From contig NZ_JAUKPO010000029.1 in NCBI RefSeq assembly GCF_030503435.1, positions 27,851 to 91,850 on the forward strand: a stretch of 64,000 nucleotides of DNA, read 5' to 3'. Shown one piece after another: positions 18,167 to 47,558 of the stretch (positions are counted from its first letter, which is position 1; each line of letters begins with the position of its first letter). The notes under the pieces were generated by a model. That model was not told the DNA's origin. It saw nothing but the letters and a program-made list of their open reading frames with translations, and did not search any database. This DNA comes from Rhodocytophaga aerolata. Lineage in GTDB: Bacteria > Bacteroidota > Bacteroidia > Cytophagales > 172606-1. The translations under genes and the position numbers were made by a program.

Positions 18167-19336
18167 ATGCTACCTAAAAATTATGTTTGGCTATACATAC
18201 TGCTGCTCTTTATTAGCAGCTGTGTAGAGGAGTATCTGCCACCACCCATTGAAGCGCCTGAAGGGTTATTGGTGATAGATGGTTACCTGAACAGCGGGCA
18301 GGAAGCCAGTACAATTGTTCTTTCCCGTACGCAGAATCTGGCAGATACTGTTAATCCCATAGCTGAAACAGGAGCCAGGGTTATTGTACAAAGTGAACAA
18401 CAGGAGTCATACCAGTTTATGGAAACCGGCAATGGGGTGTATACACTGCCGGCTATAAATGTAGTTAGCGGACAAAAATACCGGCTTCAGATACTAACTG
18501 CCTCTGGCCAGGAGTATGAATCGGAGTATGTAGCAGTGAAAGCTACGCCTGCCATCGATTCGATCAGCTGGAAAGTAGAGAATGGCGGTTTACAGCTGTA
18601 TGCCAATACCCATGATGAGCAAAACAACACCTGGTACTACCGCTGGCGCTTTGAGGAAACCTGGCAATATACTTCAGCTTTTGAATCTACCATGGACTTT
18701 GTCAACCGGCAACTAGTGCCCAGAAGTGAAGACATCTACCGGTGCTGGCGCACAGAACCTTCCACCAACATTATCATTGGGTCATCTACCCGCCTCACCC
18801 GGGATGTGATCCAAGAGTTTCCTTTGCAGTTTCTGCCTTCCGATTCAGAAAAGCTAGGCATCCGCTACAGCATCTTGGTCCGGCAATATGCGTTGAGCAA
18901 AGAGTCCTATGAGTATTTGCAGAAGTTAGAGAAGAACACAGAGAACTTAGGTACCTTATTTGACCCGCAGCCTTCCCAGCTGACAGGCAACCTGCGTTGT
19001 GTGAGTGATCCTGCCGAGATAGTCATCGGCTACTTTGATGTGTTAGCTGAGCAGCAGCAGCGCATCTTCATTGGCAAAGAACAACTGCCTGCCTGGGCGG
19101 TTACTACCGGCTATGAAGCCTGCCGAAATGATACCGTAGATGTTATGGACATACCTCCTTTGCCATCTGGCTATATGTTTATTGAGAAGCAGTGGTTTTA
19201 TAAACCCATTACAGGACCAGTAAGAGATCCTTCAGCACCTTTGTTTGTCTATACAGAAGGAGCCGTTATTTCACCCATTAGTTGTGTAGACTGCCGCACC
19301 AGGGGCACGAATATAAAACCTGATTTCTGGCAGTAA
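18167..19336 (+). CDS. DUF4249 lipoprotein, copy 2
   Basis: This 389-residue paralogue of the preceding gene has its own lipobox (FISSC) and the same YLPPPIEAPEGLLVIDGYLNSG start of the mature protein. Residues about 35-120 have clearly diverged from copy 1, the middle (about 133-322) is identical even at the DNA level, and residues 325-375 diverge again before the shared CVDCRTRGTNIKPDFWQ end. The variable N-terminal and late segments may contact different ligands on a shared scaffold. It starts 35 bases after copy 1 and is followed after 19 bases by the MG2-domain gene. Confidence 0.88.
   Translation: MLPKNYVWLYILLLFISSCVEEYLPPPIEAPEGLLVIDGYLNSGQEASTIVLSRTQNLADTVNPIAETGARVIVQSEQQESYQFMETGNGVYTLPAINVVSGQKYRLQILTASGQEYESEYVAVKATPAIDSISWKVENGGLQLYANTHDEQNNTWYYRWRFEETWQYTSAFESTMDFVNRQLVPRSEDIYRCWRTEPSTNIIIGSSTRLTRDVIQEFPLQFLPSDSEKLGIRYSILVRQYALSKESYEYLQKLEKNTENLGTLFDPQPSQLTGNLRCVSDPAEIVIGYFDVLAEQQQRIFIGKEQLPAWAVTTGYEACRNDTVDVMDIPPLPSGYMFIEKQWFYKPITGPVRDPSAPLFVYTEGAVISPISCVDCRTRGTNIKPDFWQ
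18564..19134 (+). repeat. Perfect 571-bp direct repeat, copy 2 (inside DUF4249 gene)
   Basis: This is the second copy of the block at 17356-17926. Recombination between the two copies would delete exactly 1208 bases and leave one in-frame chimaeric DUF4249 gene. Confidence 0.93.
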
Positions 19337-19355
19337 GTTGCCTTTAATAAAGTAT

Positions 19356-23411: not shown

Positions 23412-23420
23412 GGCAAATAA

Positions 23421-26400: not shown

Positions 26401-26666
26401 CGGGTGCCAACAGGTACTTCCTGTGTTTGTAGACCAATAAAACTAAAAATCAGCGTAGCATTGGTCGGTACGCTGATACTGTAGCCTCCATCAGCACCGG
26501 TTGTAGTACCCGAGGTGGAGCCTTTTACTAAAACGTTTACACCAGGTAAAGCTGATCCATCCTCCGTGGATGTTACTTTCCCTGTAACTGTTCGATCTTG
26601 CGCCTTTAGGTGGTTGGTTAAGCAGGCTAACAAGATGAAACTAATCAGTAGAATCCTTTTCATCAT
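23421..26666 (-). CDS. SusC/RagA-family TonB-linked outer-membrane transporter
   Basis: The 1081-residue protein has a signal peptide (about 1-22), a carboxypeptidase-regulatory-like domain (about 26-100, VTGKVTSTEDGSALPGVNV), a plug domain (about 112-225) with the SusC motif DDIASINVLKGAAATALYGS followed by GVILITTKKG, and a large barrel ending in an aromatic FNVQLRF terminus. It imports a nutrient through the outer membrane using TonB energy, together with the SusD lipoprotein encoded 9 bases downstream. Length and domain order are normal for the family. A probable -7 promoter element lies at 26709-26716. Confidence 0.95.
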   Translation of the reverse strand: MMKRILLISFILLACLTNHLKAQDRTVTGKVTSTEDGSALPGVNVLVKGSTSGTTTGADGGYSISVPTNATLIFSFIGLQTQEVPVGTRSVVDVQLASDVQALSEVVVTAQGIERTKNELPYAAQQVSGESIAKVRENNFVNALSGKVAGLQITRNNNMGGSTNVVIRGNKSLTGNNQALFIVDGVPIDNSNVNSNNAVSQRGSQVTGRGGYDYGNAAADINPDDIASINVLKGAAATALYGSRAANGVILITTKKGRKGLGVTVNSGMTVGMLNKNTFPTFQRQYGGGYGAYYGPNEDAYFNEADVNGDGITDLIVPTTEDASYGGPFDPNLSVYQWNAFDPTSPFYRTPTPWVAPANDPIKFFKNSITSSHSIMVDGGSDKGYFKLGYGRNTEQGILPNSELKKNFINFGAGYNVTDKLTASASINFTLTEGLGRYGTGYDDKNIATNMRQWWQTNVDILEQKDAYFRSGKNVTWNWANPLSDNPVPIYWDNPYWTRYENYQNDVRSRYFGNVSLTYKIADWIDVLGRISLDRNDFMAEERYAVGSLSPSEYSRFNRTFSEYNYDLLVNMNKDLSESFNLKGVIGTNIRRTTIESIYAETNGGLVVPNLYSLSNSLNPIEAPEEVYSDLQVNGIFASATIGFRDFIFLDLAARRDEASSLPAGANVYYYPSISTSFVFSELMKNTPWLTAGKVRLNYAEVGNTAPVQSILDVFDKPTGFGSTPLFSVPNIKNNPELKPERTKSYEAGVEMAFLDNRLGFDVTYYKQNTVDQIIPVGISRATGYTSRYINAGDVENRGWEVTAFVSPIKTPSFTWTVNVNWTRNRNEVKALYPGITNLPLGNFQGGVSINAALGEPYGTIRGQNFVYHENGEKIVLPTGYYARSATSNEIIGNINPDWIGGIQNTLRYKNVSLSFLIDTRQGGDVFSLDMYYGLATGGYPETAGLNDLGNPLRNSIANGGGYIVPGVLEDGTPNERRVSATNYGLFGYARNPAAGFVYDASYIKLREANLTFSVPQAWVDRIQPFRGIDVSVIGRNLFIFHKKLPYADPEDGLSSGNLQGYQVGSYPTTRNLGFNVQLRF

Positions 26667-27119: not shown

Positions 27120-27161
27120 CCAAAGCCCTCCGTTCATATAATTTTGAACGGAGGGCTTTGG
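27120..27161. terminator. Strong hairpin terminator after the giant surface-protein gene
   Basis: CCAAAGCCCTCCGTTCA (27120-27136) pairs perfectly with TGAACGGAGGGCTTTGG (27145-27161) around an 8-base loop. This 17-bp stem stands 23 bases past the stop codon of the gene ending at 27185. The T-run is short, so an mRNA-stabilising role is also possible. Confidence 0.8.
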
Positions 27162-27184: not shown

Positions 27185-30100
27185 CTATTTATTGTGAAGA
27201 ATGAGTAATTTCTTATACCAGGAGCTTTTGTTCCGGCTGGAAAGGTGTACCACATAGCTGCCTTCAGCATAGGATGCAACGTCTATCAGAACTTCCTTCT
27301 GTCCTTTGGCCAATACGCCTTGCGCTATTTTTCTACCAACAACATCGTAGATAGTCCATGTATATTCCTGGGTAACAGGTTGGTTAAATGAAATAGATGT
27401 TTTCTGCGTTGCCGGATTTGGATAGAGGGTAAATGTATTGGTTTCAGCCATTGCAGGTTCCATACCAGTAATAATGGTAGGAATAACAGATGGCTGTTTA
27501 AATATAGCCTGGTAAATTTCTTTGGTCCGATCATTCTGAATAAATACTACTACTGCCAACTGAGAGGCATCTTTAATATTTACCGGCTGCCACGAAACTT
27601 CCATGGAATGCGTGTCGCCTGGTTGCCATGTTCTGGTAAACTTAGTTCCGGCAGCATTAGGAAGCATTTTTCTTAAAACATTATGAAAGACAGGGGCGCC
27701 ATCATATAAATTCGTTAATTGCTTTTCAACCACAGCTACGTGTACAGTAAGCGTATCGGAAACATTAAGTAAAGCAGTCAGGTCAGTTTTAATAGTTAAG
27801 TACTGGTCTGCAGTAACTGGAAACGCTACATCAATTTTGAAAGCTGTTTCAGTGAGTTTTCTTCTGGAAAGTATGGGTAAACCCCAGCCGGAAAACTTTT
27901 GATTTACAGTATACCCATCAATGGCAGTTCTAGGACTTTGCGGAATACCATAAAATAAGGCTCTGGCACTTGGATCAGCCGGATTTACTTCATTTAACGG
28001 ATCGGCACCAGGAAAATTGGTATGGTATTGAATACTTACCACTTCATCTGTATCAACTGACAACCGGTTAATAAATGCATTTTCTTCAAGAGCTTCCGTG
28101 CTGGATGAATTCGTGAAATGTTCCAGAAGCACCGTACGGTCCCTTTCACCAATGTATACATCGTCAAAGGCAAAGCCATCCAGAATCTGATTTGGCGGGT
28201 TATCGTTGTTACTGCCAAAGGCAATCCGGAAACGTACAGAGGTGTATCCTTTTAAGTTATCTAGAGCAAATTTGGCGCTTTGCCACTGGTCGTCCATACC
28301 AGACCATCCATTCTGCCCGATCACCTGGTTGCCAGGGTTACCAATAATGGCCGATTGATTATACCAATTGATGCCTTCACCAATAGTTCCTACATTGAAC
28401 CAGGTTAATCCACCATCTACAGATGACTGAAGTACAGCTCCGTCAAAACCTTGCTGAGTATGATTCCAAATATTTAAGGAGATCATAGGCTTTGTTAACT
28501 TGCTGAAATCGAAACAAGGCGAGTAGACATATGATTTCTCATTGATATTGTACGAGGTAGCTAAGCCAGTGATCCAGGCATTTGTACCTGATGCTGCATA
28601 GGCGATGGTACTGCCGGCTGGTTTGCCATGTTCCCAACTGGATTGAATACCATCCTGAATCCATCCACCATTTGTTGTTTCAAAATTTTCAAAATAGGGG
28701 TACGTGTTGACTGAAGGTAAAACGTAGATTTCTTTTGCTATTGAATTGGTGCAACCCAGGTTTGTTTTTACAGTAAGGGTAACTATGTATCTTCCCGGGC
28801 TAGCGTAAGGATGTGCTACTTGCTCTGTACTACTGAATACCTTATTGCTTGTACCATCACCAAAATTCCAATCCCATTCGGTAATAGTGCTGAACGATAC
28901 AGTAGACTGATGAGTAAATTGCACGGATTCACCAAGACAGATGCCGGACCATGAAAAATCTGGTTTCGGAATACTACCGATTGTTACAGCCATTGTTTTG
29001 GTATTTTCGCATCCGTACGCAGATACTACTTTTAAAGTCACCGAATATGTTCCGGGCCCCGTGAAAAGGTGGAAGGGATTCTGCTCATTGGAGGTATTCA
29101 AACTCCCGGAAACTGGGTCACCAAAATTCCACTCCCAGGCAGTAATAGCTCCCGATCCGGTAGTAGGAGTCAAATCTGAAAAAGATACTTCATCGTTATC
29201 GCAAACTTTTTCAAAACGGAAGTTGGCAACAGGCATCGGATAGATGGTTACTTGCTGTTGTTGAGTGCTAGTGCAGCCATTTGAATTCGTATATGTGTAC
29301 GTTATGGTATGAATACCAGGGCCTGCAAGAGAAGGAATAAAACTGTTGCCGCTAATACCTGTGCCGCTGAAATTACCACCCGATGGAAAACCTACCAGCT
29401 TAGCAGATGGAGCTTCTACACAATACAAACTTTCCAGGCCGCTAAATGTAACCAAGGGTAGATCATATACGATTACCTGCTTAGAAGTTGAGTCCGTACA
29501 ACCATTTTCATTAGTAAATACATAGGTAATCCGATGTGTTCCAGTGCCTGCTGCCCTTGGATTAAAAAGATAACTTCCTTCAACTGCACCTGGATACACG
29601 CCCGGACCTTTGAAAACACCAAGCACACCACCTGGGCCATCATTATCTGCCGGGAATCCATTCAACTCCGCATGCGCTCCATCGACACAATAGGAAGCAT
29701 TCAGTCCACTAAAGGTAACATCTGGGACCTTATACAAGATGATTGTTTTCTCAATAAAATTTGTTCCCCCGCTAACAGGATCTTTATAGGTATATCTTAT
29801 GGTGTTAGCGCCAATAAATGCATTTGATGGACGGAATACAGTGGTGCCACCAATTACACCCGGTCCTGAGAATGTTCCTCCGGCAGGAGTACCTGTCATC
29901 AGATAGTCAGGATCTTTTGAACAAAACTGATCTGGCATGGTTCCAATGCCAACTTCAGGCAGCGGAAGCACCGTAACGGTTTGGTCCTGAAAATTTACAC
30001 AGCCATTTTCATCATTGTAGGTATACCTGATAACATGCGTGCCCGGGCCTGCAGCTCCAGCATTGAATACATTAGCAGATAACCCTTTTCCGGTGAAAAA

Positions 30101-33100
30101 GCCTCCTGCAGGTGAGCCTGTTAAGACAATGGATGGCGCATCCTGGGGATATTGTGCAGTACCTCCGGGTCCGGTAGAATTGAAACCGGTAAAACTTACT
30201 GAAGGTAATGGATGTACGACTACAGAACGTTCGAAATAATTTGTACATGCATTAGCATCTGTATAAGTATACCGGATGATATGAGTTCCAACACCTGCCA
30301 AAGAAGGTATGAAAAAATTCTTTCCGGCAATACTGTTATCTATGCCCTTTCCGGAAAAAACACCGCCAGCAGGGAATCCGGTCAATTCACTTGAAGCAGC
30401 GTCTATACAATAGGCTGTACCTAATCCAGTAAAAATCACAGTTGGTAAGGCATTAATCTGAACCCTCACCTGATCGGCTACTTCTGAACAAGGACCAGCT
30501 CCATCTGGGTCTACTGTTGTCAAGGTGAGTACCACCGTTTTGCCTATTTCGCTTGGAGCTGGTGTATAGGTTGCACTTGGCAAATGGATATCATTAAAAA
30601 TACCTAAGCCTCCACTCCAAGTTACAGTAACTGGATTTCCTTCTAAAGAAGAAGTACCTGTTAACACTATTGGTTCCCCTTCACAAACAACCATATCTGC
30701 ACCGGCATTTACAGTAACCACCGGATTAACCTGAAAATTAATCGGATTACTAGTTGCCTGGCAGGAAGCAGCTGTGGTTACTAGCACCCGAATACTTTGG
30801 CCATTGACGAGAGAAGAAGTTGTATACTTGTTAGAAGGTGAATTTTGCACGGGTGCACCATCTACAAAAAACTCATACCTTACAGCAGTAGACGAATTTG
30901 CCGTAAACGTCACGGTCTCTCCCTGACAGATGATGTTATCTGCATCTGAACTAGTGAGTACGACGGTAGGAAGGGGATTGACCGTAGTGGTGATGCCAGA
31001 GCTAAGGGTGCTACAGCCACTGGCTGTGGTAGCTCTGACCGTAACGGTTTGGCCGTTGGTTAAGCCAGAGGTCAGATACGTTGGAAAAGCTCCTTCCTGT
31101 ACCAGTGTGCCGTTTATATAGAATTTATAGTTGCTGGCACTAGCCGAGTTAGCTGTAAAAGTTACCGTTTCTTCCTGACAAATGATGTTATCCGCATCCG
31201 AGCTTGTCAGGGTGATTACTGGTAACGGATTGACGGTAGTCGTGATGCCAGAGCTAAGAATGAAGCACCCACTTGCTGTAGTGGCTCTGACCTTAACAGT
31301 TTGGCCATTGGTTAAAGCAGAGCTGATGTATAAGTTGGTGGCAGAGTTTTGCACCGATACCCCATCCACAAAAAACTCATAGGTGGTGGCAGTGGCTGAA
31401 TTAGCTTTGAAGGTTACCGTTTCTCCCTGACAGATAATGTTATCCGCATCCGAACTGGTTAAAGTTACTGATGGCAAGTCGTTAACAGCAGTGGTAATGC
31501 CAGCACTCAGGATAGAACAAGCATTAGCTGTAGAAACCCGCACAGTCACTGTTTGGCCATTGGTTAAAGCAGAGCTGATGTATAAGTTGGTGGCAGAGTT
31601 TTGCACCGATAATCCATCCACAAAAAACTCATAGGTGGTTGCAGTAGCTGAATTAGCTTTGAAGGTTACAGTCTCTCCCTGACAAATAATGTTGTCTACA
31701 TCCGAACTAGTGAGTACGACGGTAGGAAGGGGATTGACCGTAGTGGTGATGCCAGAGCTAAGGGTGCTACAGCCACTGGCTGTGGTAGCTCTGACCGTAA
31801 CGGTTTGGCCGTTGGTTAAGCCAGAGGTCAGATACGTAGGAAAAGCTCCGTCCTGCACCAGAGTGCCGTTTACATAGAATTTATAGTTGCTTACTGGTAT
31901 CGAAGAACTGGCTGTAAAGGTCACGGTTTCGCCCTGACAAATGATGTTATCCGCATCCGAACTGGTGAGAGTAAGCACCGGGACCGCATTGACGGTAGTG
32001 GTGATGCCAGAGCTAAGGGTGCTACAGCCACTAGCGGTGGTAGCTCTGACCGTGACGGTTTGGCCGTTGGTTAAGCCGGTAGTGGTAAAGGTATTCGCCG
32101 TTCCACTTTGCACCACACTGCCATTGATGAGAAAATCAAAGCTGGCGGCTACTGTTGAACTGGCTGTAAAAGTTACGGTTTCGCCCTGGCAAATGGCATT
32201 GTCGGCATCCGAACTAACCAAGGTAACAACGGGCATAGAATTCACCGTAATGGTAATACCCGAGCTAAGTGCGGCACAACTGTTGGTAGTGGTAGCTCTG
32301 ACCATAACGGTTTGGCCGTTGGTTAAGCCGGTAGTGGTAAAGGTGTTCGCCGCCCCACTTTGCACCACACTGCCATTGATGAGAAAATCAAAGCTGGCGG
32401 CTACTGTTGAACTGGCTGTAAAAGTTACGGTTTCGCCCTGACAAATAATGTTATCAGCATCCGAACTGGTGAGAGTAAGCACCGGGACCGCATTGACGGT
32501 AGTGGTAATACCTGTACTAAGCACAGAACAATCATTAGCTGTAGAAACCCGCACAGTTACTGTTTGGCCATTGGTTAAACTAGAGCTGATGTATAAGTTG
32601 GTGGCAGAGTTTTGCACCGATAATCCATCCACAAAAAACTCATAGGTGGTTGCAGTAGCTGAATTAGCTTTGAAGGTTACAGTCTCTCCCTGACAAATAA
32701 TGTTGTCTACATCCGAACTAGTGAGTACGACGGTAGGAAGGGGATTGACCGTAGTGGTGATGCCAGAGCTAAGGGTGCTACAGCCACTGGCTGTGGTAGC
32801 TCTGACCGTAACGGTTTGGCCGTTGGTTAAGCCAGAGGTCAGATACGTTGGAAAAGCTCCTTCCTGTACCAGTGTGCCGTTGACATAGAATTTATAATTG
32901 CTAGCGCTAGCTGAGTTAGCTGTAAATGTTACGGTTTCGCCCTGACAAATAGCATTGTCGGCATCTGAACTAACCAAGCTAACAACGGGCATAGGATTCA
33001 CCGTAATGGTAATACCAGAGCTAAGTGCAGCACAACTGTTGGTAGTGGTAGCTCTGACCGTAACAGTTTGGCCGTTGGTTAAGCCGGTAGTGGTAAAGGT

Positions 33101-36100
33101 GTTCGCCGCCCCACTTTGCACCACACTGCCATTGATGAGAAAATCAAAGCTGGCGGCTACTGTTGAACTGGCTGTAAAAGTTACGGTTTCGCCCTGACAA
33201 ATGATGTTGTCGGCATCCGAGCTTGTCAGAGTAAGCACCGGGACCGCATTGACAGCAGTCGTGATGCCTGAGCTTACGATAGTACATCCATAGGCAGTAG
33301 TCGCCTTCACCGTTAGTACCTGGCCGTTGGTAAGCGATGAGGTAGTATAAAGGTTAGTGGCAGAGTTTTGCACCGATACCCCATTGACGAAGAATTCATA
33401 ATTGACAGCGGTGGCTGAGTTGGCGGTAAATGTTACCATTTCTCCCTGGCAAATCTTATTGTCACTAGCTGAGCTGGTAAGACTAATAGCTATTTCATCA
33501 ATTGCTGTATTTATAGAATTACTGGTAGCTGTACATCCGCTGATTGTTCTCGCAACAACCCAAATATTTTCCCCATTCGTTAAGGCTGAAGTTGTATAAG
33601 TCTTAGCTGTCCCGGCTTGAACAGTAACACCATCCAGGAAAAACTCAAAATAGGTAGCAGTGGAGGGTGCTGTTGCCGTAAATACTACAGCTTGGTTCAA
33701 ACATATTTTATTATCACTATCACTGCTAGCTAAAGAAACCGTCAATGATTCAATAGTGGTTTTGATTGTTTGGCTATTTAGAGAACAAGCACTAGTGTTT
33801 GCTTTTACATATACCAGCTGCCCATCAGTTAACGAGCTCGTTGTAAAAGTATTAGAGGTACCAGATTGTACAGATAATCCATTGACAAAAAACTCAAAAC
33901 TGGTGGCAGCTGAAGAAACAGCTGTAAATGTAACTGCTTCTCCCGGGCAAATAGTGTTATCCGCATCGGAACTTGTCAAAGTCAGGGTAAAGTCTATAAC
34001 TGTGGTTGTAATGCCTGTACTGGTGGAAGAACATCCGTCAGCTGAAGTTACCAGAACTTTTAAAGTTTGCCCATCCGAAAGAGTAGAAGTAGTGTAAACA
34101 TTGCTAGGTGAGTTTTGTACAGACACGCCGTCTACAAAAAATATATAGTTTGTTCCTGTTGGAGAATAAGCTGAAAAAGTTACTGTCTCACCTGGGCAAA
34201 TGGTGTTGTCTAGATCACTGCTGGATAAAACAATTAACGGTAAGTTTTTTACTACTGTACTTATGGCACTGCTCATGGTTGAGCAACCCTGTGCTGTAGT
34301 TACCAGCACAGCGATAGATTGTCCGGAAGTTAAGGAATTGGTAATAAACTGATGAGAGGTGCCATTCTGCTTAGAGATACCATCCACAAAAAACTCATAA
34401 TTAACCGCTGTGGCCGAATTAGCTGTAAAGGTCACCTGTTCTCCCTGACAAATGGTGTTATCCGCATCTGAGCTTGACAGGCTGACAGCAGGCAGCGGAT
34501 TGACCGTTGTAGTAATGCCTGAGCTGGTCGCTGAACAGCCGGTAGCCGTCGTAGCTTTCACTGTTACGGTTTGGCCGTTAGTCAGCAATGAAGTGGTATA
34601 CAGGTTAGTGGCAGAGTTTTGTACCGATAGTCCATTGACAAAAAACTCATAGGTGGTAGCCGTTGGGGCATTAGCTGTAAAGGTGATGCTTTCTCCCTGA
34701 CAGATCTTGTTATCACTATCTGTGCTGCTTAATGTGGCAGTAAGTATGTTTACAAATGTTGTCACCCCTGAGCTGGTGGCTGAGCAGCCGGTGGTTGTAG
34801 TGGCTTTCACCGTTACGGTCTGGCCGTTGGTCAGCAATGAAGTGGTGAAAGTATTAGCCGGGCCATTCTGCTGAGAAAGACCATTAACGAAGAACTCATA
34901 ACTGCTGACTGTAGCTACACTGGCACTGGCTGTAAAGGTTACCGCTTCTCCCGGACAAATAGTGTTATCGGCATCTAGGCTAGTAAGTATGATTACCGGA
35001 ATAGGAGATACGGTAAAAGGGATCAAATTGCTGGTTGAAGAACAGCCATTATTATCCTTCACTGTAACGGAAATAACCTGTCCGGAAGTTAAGGAATTGG
35101 TAATAAACTGATGAGAGGTGCCATTCTGCTTAGAGATACCATCCACAAAAAACTCATAATTAACCGCTGTGGCCGAATTAGCTGTAAAGGTCACCTGTTC
35201 TCCCTGACAAATGGTGTTATCCGCATCTGAGCTTGACAGGCTGACAGCAGGCAGCGGATTGACCGTTGTAGTAATGCCTGAGCTGGTCGCTGAACAGCCG
35301 GTAGCCGTCGTAGCTTTCACTGTTACGGTTTGGCCGTTAGTCAGCAATGAAGTGGTATACAGGTTAGTGGCAGAGTTTTGTACCGATAGTCCATTGACAA
35401 AAAACTCATAGGTGGTAGCCGTTGGGGCATTAGCTGTAAAGGTGATGCTTTCTCCCTGACAGATCTTGTTATCACTATCTGTGCTGCTTAATGTGGCAGT
35501 AAGTATGTTTACAAATGTTGTCACCCCTGAGCTGGTGGCTGAGCAGCCGGTGGTTGTAGTGGCTTTCACCGTTACGGTCTGGCCGTTGGTCAGCAATGAA
35601 GTGGTGAAAGTATTAGCCGGGCCATTCTGCTGAGAAAGACCATTAACGAAGAACTCATAATTGCTGACTGTGGCTATGCTGGCACTGGCTGTAAAGGTTA
35701 CCGGTTCTCCTGCACAGATATTATTGTTGGGATCTGAACTGCTTACAGTAACAAGTAACGGATTGACATCTATTAAAAGGCTATTGCTTTGTTTTTTGCA
35801 GTTTTCCGCCGAAGTTACCTCTACATTAACCGTCTGATTGTTTGTTAGAATAGACGTTGTAAACTGATGTGAAGGCCCATTCTGCTTAGAAAGGCCATCC
35901 ACAAAGAACTCATAATTGACTGCTGTGGCAGAATTAGCTGTAAAAGTTACTGATTCACCAGGACATATTGAATTACCTCCATTTGAACTGGATAAAGAAA
36001 CTGATGGAGCTGTATTGATAGTCACTGAAGCAGTGTTAGCAAGTTCAATACTACACCCTGTTACCGGATTTGTTGCTTTAACGATTAGGGTATATGCACC

Positions 36101-38869: not shown

Positions 38870-40072
38870 TTACTTTCTATCCAGCTCTCCTTGAGCAGTA
38901 GTTTTAATGAGGCAAAGCATAGCGTTGGTTTCAAAATAGATGGTTCCAAAAATGATATAGCCACCATCAGCGGTTTGTTTCACCTGATTGCCAGTATCTG
39001 GCAGCAAACCGCCAAAACTTTTTGACCATAGTTCGTTTCCCCGCCCATCTACTTTCAGTAAAAGAATGTCTTCGTTACCTGTGCCGGGAAGGGAAGTACT
39101 TCCGGTAATAATATATCCACCATCCTTTGTTGGGGCAATTGACCTGGCTTCTTCATTGGTTTTAGGTTTGAGCACAGCCTTTTCCCATCTGGTATTGCCG
39201 CTTTCAAATAAACTGATTAGAAAAATATCTGCATCGGCCTCCTGTGCATGAAAAGTGGTACCTAAACCAATAAAGCCTGTATCTTTTAGTAGTACATCTG
39301 CTCCTTTATCTAGATTTTCCCTGCCCACATTTTTATCCCAGATTACATCGCCGGTAGCATTTGTCAGGATCATCCGCATATCGGAAGAAATCTTTCCGGT
39401 TCGTTCCCTAAACTCAGTGCCGCACCACAGCAGATTTCCTTCTGACGTTTCTCTCACAGCAGCAATCTCATCCTGAAGGCCGGTAAGGCCATAGTCTTTC
39501 TGCCAGAGCAACGTTCCGTTAGCATCTGTTTTTACCAGATACATATCGGTAGTTCCAGCAGTGGCCAACGTATTTCCTATTAATAATAGATCTCCGGTAG
39601 CAGTTATTTTTAAGTCAAAGGCTTTTTCATTCCGGCCGGGCTGCCCAAATGTTTTTGTCCATACTATTTCACCAGCACTGCTTAGTTTTACCAGATACAG
39701 ATCAGTAAAGCCGCCTTCGTGGGTGAAATCTCCCAGGCATAAAATACTTCCGTCGGCTAGTATATGTATAGCTTTTCCTTCATCATCCAATGTTTCACCA
39801 ATGGTTTTTTCCCATTCAATGTTTCCACCTTTGTCTGTTTTAATAAGGTACATGTCCATACCTCCCTTTCCGGAGGAGTTAGTAGATCCGATCCCCACAT
39901 ACCCACCATCAGCAGTTTGCTCCACGGCATAGGCTTTCTCCGTATTAAATCCTCCAAAAAGTTTGATGAATGTAGTACTCTGGGATGGGCTCACAGACCT
40001 ATCCTGTTGGCATGCCAACAAACTAAGCCCCAGTAAAAAGGAGACTGATTGTATGAGTACCCTGGTGTACAT
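38870..40072 (-). CDS. Beta-propeller lipoprotein
   Basis: The 400-residue protein has a signal sequence with lipobox LSLLAC (Cys 21) and a mature part made of about seven repeats of roughly 50 residues, each with a pattern like TADGGYVGIGST, DMYLIKTDKGGNIEWEKTIG. This is a beta-propeller related to the delta-60/kelch-like repeats of Bacteroidota lipoproteins. It should sit on the periplasmic or outer face of the outer membrane. Its stop codon directly abuts the start of the giant surface-protein gene and the beta-barrel gene ends 7 bases upstream, so a shared complex with both products is likely. Confidence 0.85.
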   Translation of the reverse strand: MYTRVLIQSVSFLLGLSLLACQQDRSVSPSQSTTFIKLFGGFNTEKAYAVEQTADGGYVGIGSTNSSGKGGMDMYLIKTDKGGNIEWEKTIGETLDDEGKAIHILADGSILCLGDFTHEGGFTDLYLVKLSSAGEIVWTKTFGQPGRNEKAFDLKITATGDLLLIGNTLATAGTTDMYLVKTDANGTLLWQKDYGLTGLQDEIAAVRETSEGNLLWCGTEFRERTGKISSDMRMILTNATGDVIWDKNVGRENLDKGADVLLKDTGFIGLGTTFHAQEADADIFLISLFESGNTRWEKAVLKPKTNEEARSIAPTKDGGYIITGSTSLPGTGNEDILLLKVDGRGNELWSKSFGGLLPDTGNQVKQTADGGYIIFGTIYFETNAMLCLIKTTAQGELDRK

Positions 40073-40079
40073 ATAGTAA

Positions 40080-41171
40080 CTACTGAATAAATGCTCCGGA
40101 TTCTTTGTCTTTTTTTGTTATTAACTTCCGGGGCTTGTATACTGGAATCAGGTATCCTACTGATAGTGCAAAACTGTTAAGGGCAATGTCATTATCAATA
40201 AACCCATAGGTGTACAATAACTCGCTGTTTGTGTACCGTTTATCTTTCCTTACCAGATTAGTCAAACCCATGTTATACCGGCCTTCCACAATAAAAATGT
40301 TGCGGGCACGTGTATATTTAACTCCCAAGTTAATTGTTCCAGAAAAAGTAAATAATCTGCGCTGAGAGCTAAGCGTAATGTTCGGACCGGTAGTTTCCCG
40401 CTGCACATCATTGACAGGCATATTATCTACTCTTCTTACCTGTGCCTGCGATTTTATGAGCATACTATTGGTAATTCCGGCTCCCAGGTAGGGAGTTATT
40501 TTTTTTCCCTGGATGGTGTAGTTTACCAAGAGAGGAATGTCTAATCTATTCTGTGATTCTGCCAGTTGCAGCTTCAGATACCCGAAAAAATCATTCGTGT
40601 AGGTGTATTTCCTGCCAGACAAGTATAATTCTGCCATGGCAGAAAATCCTTTTTTAATAGGTACTTCCAGGCTTGCTCCGGTTTGATAGCTAAAAGCTGA
40701 GGTATAGAGTGCCTGCGTTGTATGGATGTTATCTAAACTGTACGGTTGTAAGATATTAACAGAACTTGAATTAACCCCTGCTTTTACCCCAGTCAAATAT
40801 ATTGGCCAGGTTCTGAATTGTTTATATAAATTGATAAACTCAGCTGGGTCTACTGCTTCGTTAATGGAGTAGGTTGGATTCAGATGAAGAAAGGAAAGCA
40901 TTACCCGTTCGGCGTTTCCCAACTCATTCAAATATAAATAGCTGAGTGTAAGCAATCGATAAGCCTGAAGTTTTTCCTCCGTTGTAAAGCCATCTTTCAG
41001 GCATTCTTCCAGCATAGGGGATACCTCTTCTGCCCGACCTTCATAATAAGCAAATTGAGCTTTTACCAGCGTCTGGCTGCAAGTGTTTTGTGCCTTCACC
41101 TTTAATGAGAACAATACGAGGGTAATAAGCATCCATAACGGATATTGAAAAAAGATACGAAATACGTTCAT
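40080..41171 (-). CDS. Outer-membrane beta-barrel protein with N-terminal helical repeat domain
   Basis: The 363-residue protein has a signal peptide (about 1-27, ending VKAQ), a TPR-like helical segment (about 30-120, containing YYEGRAEEVSPMLEECLKDGF and LLTLSYLYLNE) and a C-terminal strand-rich part (about 125-350) with alternating patterns and TPYLGAGITNSM, like PorT/OmpA-type eight-stranded barrels. The helical domain likely lies in the periplasm. The gene lies 24 bases after the nSTAND1 gene and 7 bases before the propeller lipoprotein gene. It could form the outer-membrane component linking the inner-membrane NTPase to the surface protein; that link is inferred from gene order. Confidence 0.82.
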   Translation of the reverse strand: MNVFRIFFQYPLWMLITLVLFSLKVKAQNTCSQTLVKAQFAYYEGRAEEVSPMLEECLKDGFTTEEKLQAYRLLTLSYLYLNELGNAERVMLSFLHLNPTYSINEAVDPAEFINLYKQFRTWPIYLTGVKAGVNSSSVNILQPYSLDNIHTTQALYTSAFSYQTGASLEVPIKKGFSAMAELYLSGRKYTYTNDFFGYLKLQLAESQNRLDIPLLVNYTIQGKKITPYLGAGITNSMLIKSQAQVRRVDNMPVNDVQRETTGPNITLSSQRRLFTFSGTINLGVKYTRARNIFIVEGRYNMGLTNLVRKDKRYTNSELLYTYGFIDNDIALNSFALSVGYLIPVYKPRKLITKKDKESGAFIQ

Positions 41172-41195
41172 AGCGGTAATGCGTGTGAAGGAAGG

Positions 41196-44100
41196 TTACT
41201 TACTCTGCATGCCCTCTCCTGAAGACAACTCCGGACAGGTTTTTTCATAAGAAATGTCATCTACAGGTGCCACAAACTGCTCCCATTCTTGTTTAGACAT
41301 ATTTCTTTTCGTTTTGTCGCACAAGATATCAGCCATGGTTTTGGCATTGGTAGGCCACACCCTGACAAAACTATCACGGCATCCAGCCAGAATTGCTTCC
41401 CCATCTGATCTGAAAGAGATAGACCATACCCAGTCTGTATGATCTTTTAGCACAATAGGAAGATTATTCCAGGCTGCTGTATTCCAGAGCCGGACAGTTT
41501 TATCCCAGCTGCCTGAGGCAATTTTCTTGTCGTCCCAGCTGAACTTGATATTTATAATACGGGCACTGTGGCCGGTTAATACAACTTCAAAATCCTTGGT
41601 TTTTAAATTCCATATCCGCATCATACCTTTGGCATCACCTACTGCTAACAGAGAGCCCTTATTGCTGAAACTAAGAGCCGTTACCGGATCTTTTATTTGC
41701 AAAACCTGGGAAGCTGTATTACTTAAATTTAGTAATCTAATTTCGCCTGCTTCATTTCCAATGGCCAGCTGATTATCCAGTGGATTAACCGCTATCGCAT
41801 TGATTTTGGAAGTGGTGGTATATACTTTAGAAAATGACTGAAGATTATAAAAGTAAACATTGGCTGAGTCAGCAAAGACGATTCCCTGGTTGTTATTGAT
41901 GTACGACAAAAACCAGACAGCCTGCACAGGCACTTTTACTTTTTGAACAGGATATCCGTTTTTCTGAAGGTCAAACAGATGAATGAACGGATAATCGCCG
42001 CCTGCTGCCAGGGTCTGGTTGGTACTACTTAGCGCAAGCGTATGATGAATTAATCCTTTCTGATCTGCAAGTACAACATGGCTTTTTTCTTTTTCTAACG
42101 TGTTCCAGCGGATAATTTTTCCGTCACTTCCGGCAGAATAGACAGCTTTATCTGATTTGGTTGAGGCAAGCGCCCGCACATTGTCGCTGTGGCCTTTCAA
42201 ATTATTATATGATTCTTCCCGCGATTTTTTCAGGGCAAAATACAAACCCTCATATATATATGGATCATCTTCCTTTCCACCATATGTCTGGTTAAACTGA
42301 TAGGCTTGTCCTGCAGTCAGCAATTTTAAATCCTTATCTAGTACCTGTAAAGATTTAACAGACATAGCTTGCGCAATTGAAAGCAATCTGGCATTATAGG
42401 CATTATTTTTTTCTCTGATTGCAATGTTACTTTGCTCCTTAGCTAACTTTTCGTTTGCTTCAGCTCTAAATTGCTGCTCATAGGCGATCATCTGCTGTTT
42501 GCGGGCTTCCTTTTCGCTGGCTTCCGCTTTTAATCTTTCTTGTTGAGCCAGTTTCTCATTTTCTTTGGCTATGGCTTCCTGTCTATGGGCTTCTGCTCTT
42601 TGTTGTTCTGCTATTTCTTTCTGTTCCCGGGCATTCCGCTCACTGGAGAGTGCCAGAGCAGTCTTTTCCTTTGCTTGTTTTTCATTGAAGCGGGCAATTT
42701 CTGCCTGTTCCCGGGCTTTTATCTGCTGGGTTACAGCAAATATCAAAAAGCCAACGGTAATAACGGCGAAAAGGCCCAGAATTAACGCAACCAGGCGGGC
42801 TCTGCGTAACGCTTTCTTCTGCAGAATTTCTTTGGTCCGTTGCTCTGTTTCATAAGCGACCTTACTGTAATCCAGGTAAGCAATTACCCGTTCAAAAGCC
42901 GGATTATACCGCTGCGCCCAGGCCAGGGTTGGTTTTTGTTTCTGTTGCCAATTGAGAGCCAGCTGAAGGTCTGGTGGGCGAAGTAAAGCAGCCTGGCCAA
43001 TCTGGTATTTGGCAGACGCTTCAGCTAAGCGTAAATACATCTGTACCGCTTCTTCTTCCTCTTCTACCCATTTCTTCAATCTGAGCCAGATACGCATCAA
43101 ACTTTCATGCGAAATATCTACAATGGTATCACTTACTAATGGGGTGCCGGCCAGTGGTGTAAGTAGTGCCCTTCCAGGCTGCCGGAATTTATCTATGACA
43201 GCAAAGATTTCCGCTTCTGTAGAATCTGTAATAGTAGCAATTTCTGCAAGTTTAGTTGGGCGCCTAATTCCACTGATGTCTCCGCCTTTATCTGTAAGTG
43301 CTTTAAATAAGTTCTCACATATTTTTTTCTGTCCATCGGTTAACTCATCAAAAGCTTCATCCGCATGCTGGGATAAAGCTTCATCCATCCGCCCAATTGC
43401 TTCATAATGCTTAAAATCCAGAGGTTCACCGTTTTCCCGGCTTGCTATCCAATAGTTCCAGGTACGCATTAACGCATGCTGCAAAATTGGTAGCTGGTCA
43501 GGATTGTTTCCCAGATCGTTCAGCAGCCGCTCTACCAGCCGCGGAGCCATTTGTCCGCCACCTACGGAAACAGGACCCAAAATGGCTTTACGCTTTTGCT
43601 CCAGCGTCATCTGAGGAATCAGGTAATGGCTTTCATTGATCTTTCTGGTCAAATCAGGAAAATGGGCGCATTCTCCAATAAAATCTGACCGCATTGATAG
43701 TACTACATAAATAGAGGGAGTAGATTTTAACGCCTGTATCAGCAGCGCAATAAGTATTTCTGAAGGTAAAACCAGGTCAGAATTTTCTGCTTCTGAGGGC
43801 AGAAGATGAAACTGATGACGGAACAACTCCTCAAACTGATCGAGAAGTACTAATATATTTTTTCCTGCATAGGCTTGGCGGGAAAAAAAATCTCCCAGAG
43901 CCGAAGGCTGTGTTTGTAAAGAAGTAAGAATGGACTGAAAACGCAAGGCAGGATTTTCTGAATCTGACAGGCCTGCTTCTGCTTTAAGCAGAGCAGCAGC
44001 CAGATTTTCTAGAGGTGCATTTCCAGGACGTGCGATAATAAATTCCCAGGGAGAGTCCAGGTCGTTATAATGGCTGTTTTGTAAGCCAGGTAATAACCCA

Positions 44101-44303
44101 GAATAAATAAATGAAGATTTACCACTACCAGATGGACCCACAATTGCCACAAAACGGCTTTGCAGCAGTTTAAGCAATACTTCTCTGGTCTGTTCTTCCC
44201 GCCCAAAGAACAAATGACTTTCGTGGATACCAAAAGGTCTTAACCCTGGAAAAGGATTATATATCTTCTGTCCGGTAGCAACTGGCTGGTTTTCAATATT
44301 CAT
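41196..44303 (-). CDS. nSTAND1-type NTPase with transmembrane helix, coiled coil and WD40 propeller
   Basis: The 1035-residue protein starts with NPFPGLRPFGIHESHLFFGRE, the hallmark of the nSTAND1 family, then Walker A GPSGSGKS (56-63), a Walker B-like LVLLDQFEELF near 150, and SMRSDFIGEC. The helical STAND region runs to about 490. A single hydrophobic helix (about 503-527) is followed by a long coiled coil of EKEAREQ-type heptads (528-640) and WD40 repeats (about 700-1000) with GHSARIINIKF and SGSWDKTVRLW. The end has KRNMSKQEWEQFV and YEKTCP, common in bacterial WD40-STAND proteins. If the NTPase is cytoplasmic the propeller must be periplasmic. STAND proteins are signal-driven switches in regulation and defence. 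The neighbours here are envelope proteins. Confidence 0.88.
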   Translation of the reverse strand: MNIENQPVATGQKIYNPFPGLRPFGIHESHLFFGREEQTREVLLKLLQSRFVAIVGPSGSGKSSFIYSGLLPGLQNSHYNDLDSPWEFIIARPGNAPLENLAAALLKAEAGLSDSENPALRFQSILTSLQTQPSALGDFFSRQAYAGKNILVLLDQFEELFRHQFHLLPSEAENSDLVLPSEILIALLIQALKSTPSIYVVLSMRSDFIGECAHFPDLTRKINESHYLIPQMTLEQKRKAILGPVSVGGGQMAPRLVERLLNDLGNNPDQLPILQHALMRTWNYWIASRENGEPLDFKHYEAIGRMDEALSQHADEAFDELTDGQKKICENLFKALTDKGGDISGIRRPTKLAEIATITDSTEAEIFAVIDKFRQPGRALLTPLAGTPLVSDTIVDISHESLMRIWLRLKKWVEEEEEAVQMYLRLAEASAKYQIGQAALLRPPDLQLALNWQQKQKPTLAWAQRYNPAFERVIAYLDYSKVAYETEQRTKEILQKKALRRARLVALILGLFAVITVGFLIFAVTQQIKAREQAEIARFNEKQAKEKTALALSSERNAREQKEIAEQQRAEAHRQEAIAKENEKLAQQERLKAEASEKEARKQQMIAYEQQFRAEANEKLAKEQSNIAIREKNNAYNARLLSIAQAMSVKSLQVLDKDLKLLTAGQAYQFNQTYGGKEDDPYIYEGLYFALKKSREESYNNLKGHSDNVRALASTKSDKAVYSAGSDGKIIRWNTLEKEKSHVVLADQKGLIHHTLALSSTNQTLAAGGDYPFIHLFDLQKNGYPVQKVKVPVQAVWFLSYINNNQGIVFADSANVYFYNLQSFSKVYTTTSKINAIAVNPLDNQLAIGNEAGEIRLLNLSNTASQVLQIKDPVTALSFSNKGSLLAVGDAKGMMRIWNLKTKDFEVVLTGHSARIINIKFSWDDKKIASGSWDKTVRLWNTAAWNNLPIVLKDHTDWVWSISFRSDGEAILAGCRDSFVRVWPTNAKTMADILCDKTKRNMSKQEWEQFVAPVDDISYEKTCPELSSGEGMQSK

Positions 44304-44363
44304 TCCGGTAGAGATATATTTTGGATGCTTTGTGGTAATTATATTTCATGGGCTATAGGTTTT

Positions 44364-47300
44364 TTAGGAAAATACAAGTGAGCTATCTTCAATAGGGAGT
44401 TGCTCGGAAGCGGTTAGTCTGCTGGCTAGTAAGGCATAGCTGTTTCCTGTTTCCGGATAATATGAAATCAGCCGGTAAAATATTTCTTTTTCAATGGCAT
44501 AGGCATATACCTCTTCCGATGCGATAATATCAAATGAGTTGATGTCGTTTTCCAGGATCATTATCTCTCCAATTAAATCATGTACCTTGAAAACCGTCTC
44601 CTGATAAGATTCTTCATTTATGCTTCTGGCCGTACCGCTGAAAATAATATATAAAGGGGTGTTGGTCTTCTGTCCGGCATTAATTATGACTTCACCTTTG
44701 CGGAAGTAAAAAATCCGTATATTTTCAGCGATATCTGCCAAAATATGGTTTGGCATATGAGCTAGCAAAGGATTTTTTTTGAGAAAAAGCACTCTGTGCA
44801 TCAGCATTCCACTTATTTCCAGTTTACCTGAAAGTACAGGCTTGTTGAGCAATACCATATCTAGCTCAATCTTAGAGGAGGCTTTAATGCGCATTCCCAA
44901 GGCGGTATACAGCGATTGGTCACGGCAATAAATTGCCCAAGCAGCGGTTTCACGGAGCAAGGGATCAGGATTAAAAATATGGGCAATGAGTTCATTACTT
45001 AGGGGAGCCTGCGGTGTATGGGCAAGCGAATAGATAGCACAGGCTTTTGTCCATCGGTTAATTGCATTAAATTCCCGGTTTAAAATATGCAGCAAAACCT
45101 CTGTGGAATTTAAGGTTTCCCTGGGGAAATAGGCCTGATAAATACTTACCTCTTCAGCTGCAGGTATATCATCTAGCAGTGGGAATAAAATGGTTTTTAA
45201 GTGTTTATCTATAAAGACATCCAGCAACTCCAGGGCATATACTTTACTTTCGCTTGATCCGCTTTCTATATTTTCTTTTACCAGCTGGATAGATCTGGGG
45301 TCGTAAATCAGTGAAAGGAGCAGGAATATTCTTTCAAAATTATATTGCATTTCCTCTTCCAGCGCCCGTTGCAGGTGGCGGTTGTAGGAGGCCTCTGCTA
45401 TTTCAAGCAAAGCCGCTTGGTTCCAGGCTGCTTTTCCTATTTCCTGCTCTACCAGTAATTGTACAAAAGCAACCTTGCTTCCGCTTTGCAAATGGCATTC
45501 ATTCAATGCTAACAGAACTTCTGTAGCTACTTTTGCATCCGGATATTCAATTTTTTCCCAGAGTAATTCTGCAGCTTCAGGTGTGCCTATTTGTCCATAG
45601 ATATTAATTATTTTCTGAAGAAGAGGGGTACTCTGGCCAGTTTTATGAAAAGCAATTTCTAATACCGGTAACACCAAGTTTCCCGATTCAATGAGGGCTC
45701 TGGCTGCTGCGTGTGTGCAGGAAGAGACAGAAAGCAGTTCTATCAGAATTGGCCATGTTTCAGGCCGCTTCACTTGCATAGCTACTGCAATAGCTTCTTT
45801 TTTTACACCAGTATCTGTATCGCGGAGGAGTTCTGTTAAAAGGAAAACATTATCAGCATTAACAATTTTGCTGAGCAGTTGTAAACTAATTATTCGTTCG
45901 GATGGGTTTTCTGAACGAGCAAGTTTTTGTACGGACGATAACCCAAAAGAATTGAATTTTACCTTACTGCCAGCACTGGTAATTTCCATATACGCCCCTT
46001 CCTGATCAGACTTCTTGTTTGAGAAAATATTAACGCCTACCGAAAGATTTCTCTGCCTCTTTTGAATATATGCCTGCAACGGTGCTGAATCAACTTCTTG
46101 TATGGTTGCAAGTGCCTGAGTAAGCAAACTAGGTTCCACTCGTTCAATAAGTTTCAAACAAACAATCGGGTATAATGGATGGGAGAGGTACTCTGTGTTT
46201 TTGAAGAGTATATCCAGTAAGTATGTTTTTTTGTTTTTCGAATAAATTTCTTTTTTAGATTTCTCCAGACTTCGTTCCAGTGTAGACCGGTAATGGCTGT
46301 AGAGCCTTGTTACGGCCAGCAACCAGCAAATAACAATAGGCACTAGCGCATAGGTAAACCATATCAGATCCAAAAAAGCAAAGTATTTCAACAACCAAAG
46401 TAAGCACCCTGCAATACATACCGCCAGCATGGTCACTACTCCTTCTATTCTTGCCTGTACATTAAAACGGGCAGAGGTATCTAGCGGAAGCAGGTAAAGC
46501 TTAAAGGTGGGATTATCGAGGGCATCTTTCAGGGAAACGGCAAACAGCTTGCTCAACGCTACAGACAGAAAGAATAGAATAAATGACTCCGAAATACGTG
46601 TATGGCCAATATACGAGCCAATGATGCTGGAGAGGATGGTAAAGAAACAAAATAAGACAGGGTTAATCAGCAGTGCTACTTTCAACCCATACATATTAAC
46701 GATTCTATCTGTTACAAAATTTTGTATGATAAAATTGAAAATAACTACAGTTCCTGTGAAAATACTGATGAAGTTGGCCAGGTGCCTGGTATTGGGAAAT
46801 TGTTCGGCAGTAACGGATAGAAAGGAATAGTTTAACAGATAGATAGCAATGGTGGAAATAATTACCAAAATGGCCATTTGAATTACATACCTGTTTTTTA
46901 TCAGATTTTTAACACTTACTGACTCTTCCGGCTGGTTATCGTCAGGGAGGTCTATATGCGTATCATTTAATTTGTACTTCCACTTCAGAATTAGTAAGGT
47001 TATTAAAATTAAGGTAACGCTGGTGGCACTTATCCAAAGCAAATCTACGGTGTGTGGTAGGAAGGTCAGTACAACGGGAATAGTAAACAATGCCACAATG
47101 GAGGCAAGCAGTTGGCCGCTGTCAATGCGGCTGATCATTTTCTTTGATTCCCGTAAACTGAATATACGCCCAAAAAGTCCCCAGAAGATTAAGAAGGATA
47201 CTGTTGTAAAGGGGCCGATACAGGCAAAGGCACAAAAAATTACCAAATCGTGACTCTCTTCATAATCCACACCAAGCCGGATACCGGTAGTTAGAACAAT

Positions 47301-47558
47301 GATGAGCAGAATAAAAAAAACAGAGAGTGAGGTAAAATTTACCTTGGTCTGTAGATATGCAAACAGATAGGTGAAAACAATACCTAATAGCCCGGAGGTA
47401 ACAATGGCTTTTGGCAAATAAGCCTGCTCGTCGAAACGATCCAGAAATAGCGTACTGGCACCAACGTCCAGGGTAGCTACAAAAATACCTGTAAAGAAGC
47501 CAATAGTCAGCATCAATAATATCCTGCCGGACTCAGCTGTTTTCTCTTTGACTTTCAT
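44364..47558 (-). CDS. NTT-type nucleotide transporter fused to HEAT repeats and cyclic-nucleotide-binding-like domain
   Basis: The 1064-residue protein has about 12 membrane helices (15-430) arranged as in the ATP/ADP translocase (NTT) branch of the major facilitator fold, including KDALDNPTFKLYLLPLD, similar to the NTT signature region. A HEAT-repeat solenoid follows (about 440-920), and a cyclic-nucleotide-binding-like domain ends the protein (about 930-1050, FYFRKGEVIINAGQ... HDLIGEIMILEND). The phosphate-binding cassette has the GE but lacks the arginine of CRP-type domains, so cAMP binding is doubtful. NTT-HEAT proteins are known in free-living Bacteroidota, where the role is unclear. 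It is the first gene of the five-gene operon, 60 bases before the nSTAND1 gene. Confidence 0.82.
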   Translation of the reverse strand: MKVKEKTAESGRILLMLTIGFFTGIFVATLDVGASTLFLDRFDEQAYLPKAIVTSGLLGIVFTYLFAYLQTKVNFTSLSVFFILLIIVLTTGIRLGVDYEESHDLVIFCAFACIGPFTTVSFLIFWGLFGRIFSLRESKKMISRIDSGQLLASIVALFTIPVVLTFLPHTVDLLWISATSVTLILITLLILKWKYKLNDTHIDLPDDNQPEESVSVKNLIKNRYVIQMAILVIISTIAIYLLNYSFLSVTAEQFPNTRHLANFISIFTGTVVIFNFIIQNFVTDRIVNMYGLKVALLINPVLFCFFTILSSIIGSYIGHTRISESFILFFLSVALSKLFAVSLKDALDNPTFKLYLLPLDTSARFNVQARIEGVVTMLAVCIAGCLLWLLKYFAFLDLIWFTYALVPIVICWLLAVTRLYSHYRSTLERSLEKSKKEIYSKNKKTYLLDILFKNTEYLSHPLYPIVCLKLIERVEPSLLTQALATIQEVDSAPLQAYIQKRQRNLSVGVNIFSNKKSDQEGAYMEITSAGSKVKFNSFGLSSVQKLARSENPSERIISLQLLSKIVNADNVFLLTELLRDTDTGVKKEAIAVAMQVKRPETWPILIELLSVSSCTHAAARALIESGNLVLPVLEIAFHKTGQSTPLLQKIINIYGQIGTPEAAELLWEKIEYPDAKVATEVLLALNECHLQSGSKVAFVQLLVEQEIGKAAWNQAALLEIAEASYNRHLQRALEEEMQYNFERIFLLLSLIYDPRSIQLVKENIESGSSESKVYALELLDVFIDKHLKTILFPLLDDIPAAEEVSIYQAYFPRETLNSTEVLLHILNREFNAINRWTKACAIYSLAHTPQAPLSNELIAHIFNPDPLLRETAAWAIYCRDQSLYTALGMRIKASSKIELDMVLLNKPVLSGKLEISGMLMHRVLFLKKNPLLAHMPNHILADIAENIRIFYFRKGEVIINAGQKTNTPLYIIFSGTARSINEESYQETVFKVHDLIGEIMILENDINSFDIIASEEVYAYAIEKEIFYRLISYYPETGNSYALLASRLTASEQLPIEDSSLVFS

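Follow-up and report, generated by a model that had tools for sequence, protein, structure and literature searches.

This study focused on a five-gene operon of Rhodocytophaga aerolata (Cytophagales), encoded on the minus strand of contig NZ_JAUKPO010000029.1 within a stretch of 64,000 nucleotides (contig positions 27,851 to 91,850) that is called the window below and whose own numbering is used throughout. The genes specify an NTT-HEAT-cNMP (cyclic nucleotide monophosphate) protein, an nSTAND1-WD40 nucleoside triphosphatase (NTPase), a predicted outer-membrane barrel protein, a beta-propeller lipoprotein and a giant protein with a sorting domain of the type IX secretion system (T9SS). Such genes are clustered beyond chance among relatives, and the window operon is a reduced form, a gene for a TIR-like protein having been lost on its lineage. 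The original prediction had seen in the operon a machine by which a nucleotide- or signal-sensing inner-membrane part controls a giant adhesin. The evidence presented here points in the other direction, and we give nearly an even chance to the reading that the operon specifies an outside-in, envelope-spanning signalling chain resembling the nucleotide-binding leucine-rich repeat (NLR) receptors, and not an adhesin-controlling machine. The features are, in gene order:

44364..47558, minus strand: gene 1, NTT-HEAT-cNMP protein, 1064 amino acids (aa); NTT-family transporter domain at about residues 1-430, predicted inner-membrane
44304..44363, minus strand: junction of genes 1 and 2, 60 bp; site of the TIR-like gene in relatives, gene absent here
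41196..44303, minus strand: gene 2, nSTAND1-WD40 protein, 1035 aa; NTPase at residues 1-490, hydrophobic segment from 504, heptads from 523
40080..41171, minus strand: gene 3, predicted outer-membrane barrel protein, 363 aa; hydrophobic N-terminal helix, helical domain, small OmpA/OmpW-like barrel
38870..40072, minus strand: gene 4, beta-propeller lipoprotein, 400 aa; SBBP/delta-60 type, lipobox ending at Cys21
27185..38869, minus strand: gene 5, giant protein, 3894 aa; Ig_7 array, PKD, C-terminal type A T9SS sorting domain
27121..27160, minus strand: inverted repeat with perfect 16-bp arms and an 8-nt loop, directly 3' of the giant gene, read from the sequence

All five open reading frames (ORFs) were recovered at the positions first given for them, on one strand and with gaps of 60, 24, 7 and 0 bases in gene order, and Pfam and NCBIfam searches confirmed the domain make-up that had been proposed for each protein. 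The suggested order from cytoplasm to surface also holds, the genes forming a single conserved ordered unit from the inner membrane to the surface. The set of five, while real in this genome, is the shortened version of a larger one, to which relatives add the TIR-like gene and some of them a HAMP-SpoIIE phosphatase gene.

A survey of gene neighbourhoods, the check that the original prediction had named for itself, found that these families co-occur in other genomes. It covered 291 genomes of the order (E-values of up to 1e-3 for the TIR-like, 1e-30 for the barrel and 1e-60 for the NTT protein) together with stretches fetched around relatives' loci, the presence or absence of genes being judged within the stretch. 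Among 22 loci in named genomes, found by the barrel protein alone, an nSTAND1 gene adjoins in 20, and a propeller gene is present at 19, a TIR-like gene at 18 and an NTT gene at 16; all cases of a missing partner lie at contig ends, except for NTT in L061. The barrel gene occurs in the order sample at 90 loci in 66 genomes, and the TIR-like gene was detected in 52 genomes and the NTT gene in 131, with the TIR-like scan missing at least one (G456, which has a labelled TIR-like gene at L124). Every one of the 52 TIR-like-positive genomes carries the barrel gene, which is present in 14 of the remaining 239 (Fisher p 6e-45, relatedness ignored). Within 12 kb upstream of the 90 barrel loci an NTT gene is found at 51, a TIR-like gene at 51 and either or both at 63, and a barrel gene lies within 8 kb downstream of 51 of 64 TIR-like places checked, and not of the other 13. 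The 27 barrel loci with neither gene upstream were all fetched, and 24 have another component nearby (nSTAND1 or its WD40 part at 10, the propeller only at 10, NTT on the other side at 4), which makes the gene set a modular one; altogether, 87 of the 90 loci are accompanied by one or more further components within the examined stretch. In a sample of 395 genomes from the phylum, full-length barrel matches (E below 1e-75) were found in four, all of this order.

The gene order in relatives is NTT-(SpoIIE)-TIR-like-nSTAND1-outer-membrane protein-propeller; adjacent core genes are separated by median gaps of 1 to 12.5 bp, and NTT and nSTAND1 by 124 bp where the TIR-like gene is missing. Twenty NTT-like loci from relatives gave nSTAND1 and barrel matches in 14 and an extra gene after the NTT gene in 13, mostly of 455-502 codons (251 in L042), and two tested neighbour genes in relatives' operons were identified as HAMP-SpoIIE. 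In a second group that lacks the TIR-like gene (L125, L126, L127, L131, L091 and L093), NTT is repeatedly preceded by small genes of about 165-245 codons. In family f14 (L101, L102 and L113-L117, with two gene orders) the stretch contains the barrel and propeller genes but no nSTAND1, several of these loci having a large Ig/PKD-type gene beside the pair.

Seven proteins specified by the extra gene were searched; six match TIR_2 and/or DUF4062, five of them above the curated cut-off, and the seventh (L036) matches neither, yet can be aligned to the other six. A profile that detects the gene in 52 other genomes did not find it in the window operon or in the rest of the window genome. The sister operon of Rhodocytophaga rosea (G001; barrel entry P0017), of the same genus, retains it, and a tree built from 60 nSTAND1 domains places the window sequence as sister to that of R. 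rosea (support 100/99), both lying within a set of 27 sequences (support 99/97) of which 25 come with a TIR-like gene. Ten more, from another family, branch as a group of their own, none with a TIR-like gene. The AlphaFold model of a relative's TIR-like protein has three five-stranded beta-alpha units (mean predicted local distance difference test score, pLDDT, 78.7; predicted template modelling score, pTM, 0.38), and a Foldseek search with this model returned the TIR domains of RPP1, SNC1 and MyD88 only weakly (E above 1e-3), with other folds first. In the middle unit, the presumed catalytic position, located from motifs, is Gln in 31, Glu in 6 and Ala in 1 of 38 proteins; the equivalent position by the same motifs is Lys in 35 in the third unit and Glu in 7 in the first, and no DUF4062 structure was found on which the position could be aligned. 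Since the presumed catalytic Glu is mostly absent, the TIR-like protein is presumably a non-catalytic scaffold in most members.

Relative-rate tests between the window and R. rosea, with five non-independent outgroups, covered eight partitions of the first four proteins: the NTPase, three parts of the NTT protein, the coiled coil, the WD40 part, the barrel and the propeller. In the NTPase domain the window branch has gathered 65-69 unique changes, compared with 24-31 on the R. rosea branch, a faster rate at p values of 9.5e-6 to 1.4e-4; none of the other seven partitions showed significant acceleration (p of 0.075 or more, with few informative sites in the coiled coil). Acceleration of the NTPase only is what would be expected had the lost TIR-like partner been in contact with the NTPase. 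A clustering of the window changes in residues 65-200 (28 of 46, a fraction of 0.61) was set aside; the region had been picked post hoc from the window's own histogram, and the highest value among the other rows shown, 0.43, also belongs to a locus without the TIR-like gene.

STAND receptors, such as plant NLRs, the apoptosome and bacterial Avs proteins, are known to be cytoplasmic switches, and proteins of this class relay a signal from a C-terminal sensor to an N-terminal NTPase. Gene 2 matches nSTAND1 (PF20703, E 4.6e-93) and then WD40, its Walker A and B motifs, whose core residues are the same in all 14 aligned proteins, are intact (GPSGSGKSS and DQFEE), and it gives the one nSTAND1 match above the Pfam cut-off in the 9.07 Mb genome. 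A strong hydrophobic segment follows the NTPase in 60 of 60 nSTAND1 proteins (median start 508), so that the WD40 end is predicted to be periplasmic and the NTPase cytoplasmic; the N side of this segment is the more positive one in 59 of the 60. In the window protein, 17 successive Ala heptads begin at residue 523 and extend over about 119 residues, corresponding to a helix of 17-18 nm, and the C-terminal part is a WD40 propeller, with Cys 995 and 1023.

The barrel protein (gene 3) has OMP_b-brl_2 as its sole Pfam match, with no match to Plug or the TonB-receptor barrel, and a single NCBIfam match far below cut-off. Its model (mc1263c63c119, pLDDT 86.7) consists of a helical domain and a small barrel that Foldseek places closest to OmpA, OmpW and OmpX, and which, going by the model, we consider too small to export proteins. 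The helical domain has two Cys that are conserved in 71 and 70 of 77 proteins. The domain was surveyed at ten loci, nine outside the order (L081-L089) and one within it (L077, genome G016). Five of them (L077, L081, L085, L086 and L087) encode it as a fusion with Plug and a TonB-receptor barrel, and five of the six examined helical-domain proteins of over 700 aa are TonB-dependent receptors. Four of the receptor forms adjoin a full nSTAND1 gene and the fifth (L087) a WD40 ORF; an NTT-HEAT-cNBD (cyclic-nucleotide-binding domain) gene is near the receptor in L077, L081 and L085, in the order nSTAND1-receptor-small gene-NTT. The helical domain is therefore exchangeable, and because it is fused to TonB-dependent receptors beside nSTAND1 genes, it is likely to form the contact to the predicted periplasmic WD40 end where both occur. 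L082, L084, L088 and L089 carry it on small proteins, and at L084 (6940-9716) a 207-aa helical-domain protein stands right behind a Ser/Thr protein kinase (Pkinase) with PEGA repeats, from which the domain may also serve kinase receivers. L085 and L087 also have Reg_prop/Y_Y_Y proteins with a SpoIIE or HATPase match.

Gene 4 specifies an SBBP/delta-60-type propeller, with PQQ_2 and DUF5122 just over cut-off and a lipobox. A strict lipobox pattern is found in 33 of 60 propeller proteins, and by eye most of the others (uncounted) have a Cys after a hydrophobic stretch. The giant protein combines an Ig_7 array and PKD with a Por_Secre_tail (PF18962, E 5.5e-13; TIGR04183 over cut-off), and the window genome has a gene for SprA (SprA_N, E 3.4e-162, in an open frame of 2424 aa); from these matches, T9SS presumably exports the giant protein. 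Four relatives' giants all have a T9SS sorting domain over cut-off, and three of them PKD, and they differ in their front domains (SprB repeats, CBM, fn3, Ig). Of 25 complete genes that directly follow the propeller gene and exceed 600 codons, 21 have a sorting domain, five of these 21 being seeds of the profile.

Gene 1 matches the TLC ATP/ADP transporter family (E 2.2e-10), HEAT_2 and cNMP_binding, and its family profile matches solved carriers in the PDB (9j3n, E 2.6e-20; 9j3j, E 6.5e-19); by these matches it is an NTT relative with a predicted NTT fold. Several stretches common to the two carriers are, by eye, not kept in the operon family. Gene 1 lacks what we take to be the canonical phosphate-binding cassette motif of cNMP domains. 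None of the 46 NTT proteins from loci with nSTAND1 or a TIR-like gene has this motif, and it is retained in four of eight from other loci. NTT-HEAT proteins outside the operon at L037, L078, L079 and L080 have the canonical cassette, a pattern by which the family may be split into cNMP-sensing and non-sensing branches. Sensing of cyclic nucleotides by gene 1 was rejected on the missing cassette, and the proposal of a nucleotide-sensing inner-membrane part in control of the adhesin found no support.

In the outside-in chain, the giant protein would leave the cell via T9SS, and ligand binding or contact would be relayed to the lipoprotein of gene 4 and to the barrel protein, whose helical domain would then touch the WD40 propeller. 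On the predicted topology, this propeller is held out from the inner membrane by the coiled coil of about 17-18 nm. The NTPase would switch like other STAND proteins, and the output would run via the TIR-like scaffold and/or the NTT-HEAT protein, with a SpoIIE-type phosphatase in some relatives; in the window genome, where the TIR-like partner is gone, it would pass through the NTT-HEAT protein alone. This direction is favoured, not proven, by STAND logic, by the predicted topology and by the fusion of the helical domain to TonB-dependent receptors, and it gives the best fit to a predicted periplasmic sensor, to exchangeable outer-membrane partners and to an effect of TIR-like loss on the NTPase side. 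For the Bacteroidota more widely, it is a tentative and somewhat doubtful proposal that the system is an envelope-spanning NLR with a cytoplasmic NTPase, a coiled-coil-held WD40 part, exchangeable outer-membrane receptors, and a non-catalytic triple-TIR scaffold and NTT-HEAT protein as outputs. To the same limited degree, one may suppose that these receptors are either the small barrel with a giant T9SS adhesin or a TonB-dependent receptor.

A number of observations weigh against the outside-in chain. At five of the ten helical-domain loci (L082-L084, L088 and L089) the stretch lacks an nSTAND1 gene, so that the domain is not tied to nSTAND1, and this weakens both the outside-in and the exchangeable-receptor readings; L083 has a small helical-domain protein and one of 742 aa with PPC, FlgD_ig and a T9SS tail but no barrel. 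The nSTAND1 topology is predicted from hydropathy and charge only, and four of the 60 proteins, the window's included, have a second over-threshold segment, each inside the NTPase region. Acceleration of the NTPase could alternatively have come from local recombination, and the coiled-coil partition was poor in informative sites. Two lineages without the TIR-like gene have 10 NTPase changes in common, out of 46 and 31 (p 0.023); several controls that carry the gene gave lower p values, and this test for convergence was dropped because the controls were not exceeded. Among the 27 barrel loci that have neither NTT nor a TIR-like gene upstream, three have no recognised partner, and ten have barrel and propeller with no nSTAND1 in the stretch, some of them at contig ends. 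The NTT, TIR-like and barrel genes of G024 lie on three separate contigs, none of the three was found in six genomes of the same family (G002-G007) at the cut-offs used, and the distribution is patchy, as the 66 of 291 genomes with a barrel gene show.

The converse arrangement, in which the inner-membrane NTPase and transporter determine how the giant adhesin is exported, anchored or exposed, would account for the giant gene being last in the operon and having a T9SS sorting domain, and for barrel and propeller genes that stay paired without nSTAND1 in the stretch, several beside a large gene. It is nevertheless unlikely. T9SS is generally known to have its own motor and translocon, and SprA is present in the genome; a barrel resembling OmpA and OmpW would offer no export pore; the NTPase is predicted to lie beyond the inner membrane, in the cytoplasm; and no giant T9SS gene was identified at the TonB-receptor loci, where not every gene was searched. 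Rather improbable, too, is a conflict system in which an envelope trigger, such as phage adsorption or contact with another strain, would act through nSTAND1 and the TIR-like protein to cause death or dormancy. The partnership of nSTAND1 with a TIR/DUF4062-like protein in relatives and the variation of binding repeats among the giants speak for it, a patchy distribution strengthens it, and a 2026 preprint (PMC13174449) reports DUF4062 as an NADase in phage defence. Set against these are the predominance of Gln at the presumed catalytic position, the failure to find a TIR-like gene in the window genome, for which DUF4062 NADase defence was rejected as the main role, and PADLOC searches that gave weak matches only (the strongest, in the cNMP-binding region of gene 1, at E 2.9e-6) and none to two TIR-like proteins.

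Transport itself might be the purpose, the NTT protein moving nucleotides as signal or supply while the other components sense demand; the NTT fold by sequence and the bacterial NTT-HEAT-cNBD fusions described in PMC5381601 agree with this, but with stretches shared by the two solved carriers not kept and the cNMP cassette missing throughout, it has little probability. Least of all would we credit a loose neighbourhood of separate envelope genes that are co-inherited and have no common task. Partial sets do occur, and the set is scattered in G024, but the barrel gene accompanies the TIR-like gene in all 52 genomes, nSTAND1, the helical domain and NTT are reunited in a different gene order, and a domain-specific rate change follows the loss of a partner.

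If the outside-in chain is true, a conserved, periplasm-spanning STAND family that connects with exchangeable outer-membrane receptors would amount to a new information route across two membranes, by which surface contact is sensed directly by a switch of the immune-receptor type. It would also point to a function for some of the NTT-HEAT-cNBD fusions that are so far uncharacterised, and the use of giant secreted adhesins as sensors would become testable.

Two SusC/SusD-type pairs flank the operon, one on each side (21984-26666 and 54693-59749), and the plus strand at 14165-21764 carries a TonB-type receptor, two tandem DUF4249 proteins and an MG2-like protein. No match to the Bacteroidota promoter pattern was found 5' of gene 1, and sigma-70-type promoter matches are at chance level. 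The 16-bp inverted repeat after the giant gene might mark where transcription stops; it is not followed by a long run of T, and it is not in the output of the terminator scan.

TonB-dependent cell-surface signalling, of the FecA-FecR-FecI type, is similar in that an outer-membrane barrel with an extra periplasmic domain would signal to an inner-membrane protein, and at five of the related loci the barrel is a TonB-dependent receptor. The receiver here, however, would be an nSTAND1 NTPase and not an anti-sigma factor, the barrel in the window is a small one lacking a Plug match, and no anti-sigma/sigma pair was found among the five genes and 20 other scanned window ORFs, a few being left unscanned. 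The gliding-motility pair SprB-SprF, offered at first as the nearest analogy, likewise places a giant T9SS cargo beside an outer-membrane protein gene, and the giant at L057 has SprB repeats. The analogy is a poor one, and a module of this type was rejected, since the barrel belongs to another family (OMP_b-brl_2 only in Pfam, not PorP/SprF) and the sorting domain is type A (PF18962/TIGR04183) and not type B (CHU_C); a propeller lipoprotein and inner-membrane partners are further differences.

Among published systems, NTT-HEAT-cNBD fusions occur in bacteria (Major et al. 2017, PMC5381601) and have the domain order of gene 1; in the available part of that paper they are treated as transporters whose role is unknown, with no STAND, outer-membrane or T9SS partner named, whereas the operon members lack the cNMP cassette. 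The nSTAND1 and NLR-like STAND systems, as far as the excerpts of PMC8195603 and PMC10907252 describe them, share the nSTAND1 NTPase, a repeat-type sensor and, with relatives of the window operon, a TIR-like partner. They differ from the present genes, which are predicted to span the envelope and stand beside outer-membrane and secreted proteins, and whose TIR-like partner mostly has no presumed catalytic Glu and is absent from the window. The Swarozyc DUF4062 TIR-like NADases (preprint PMC13174449) have the DUF4062-type domain found in relatives' TIR-like partner, but the operon protein consists of three predicted units, has Gln in 31 of 38 cases, is encoded near a barrel gene at 51 of 64 places and is missing in the window. 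That the original prediction knew of no described system with this composition agrees with the literature, there being no published description of it among the listed matches in open-licence PMC texts. Every single module is already known, and the composition is taken to be new because the window lacks at least one defining feature of each of SprB-SprF, TonB-dependent signalling and STAND/TIR defence.

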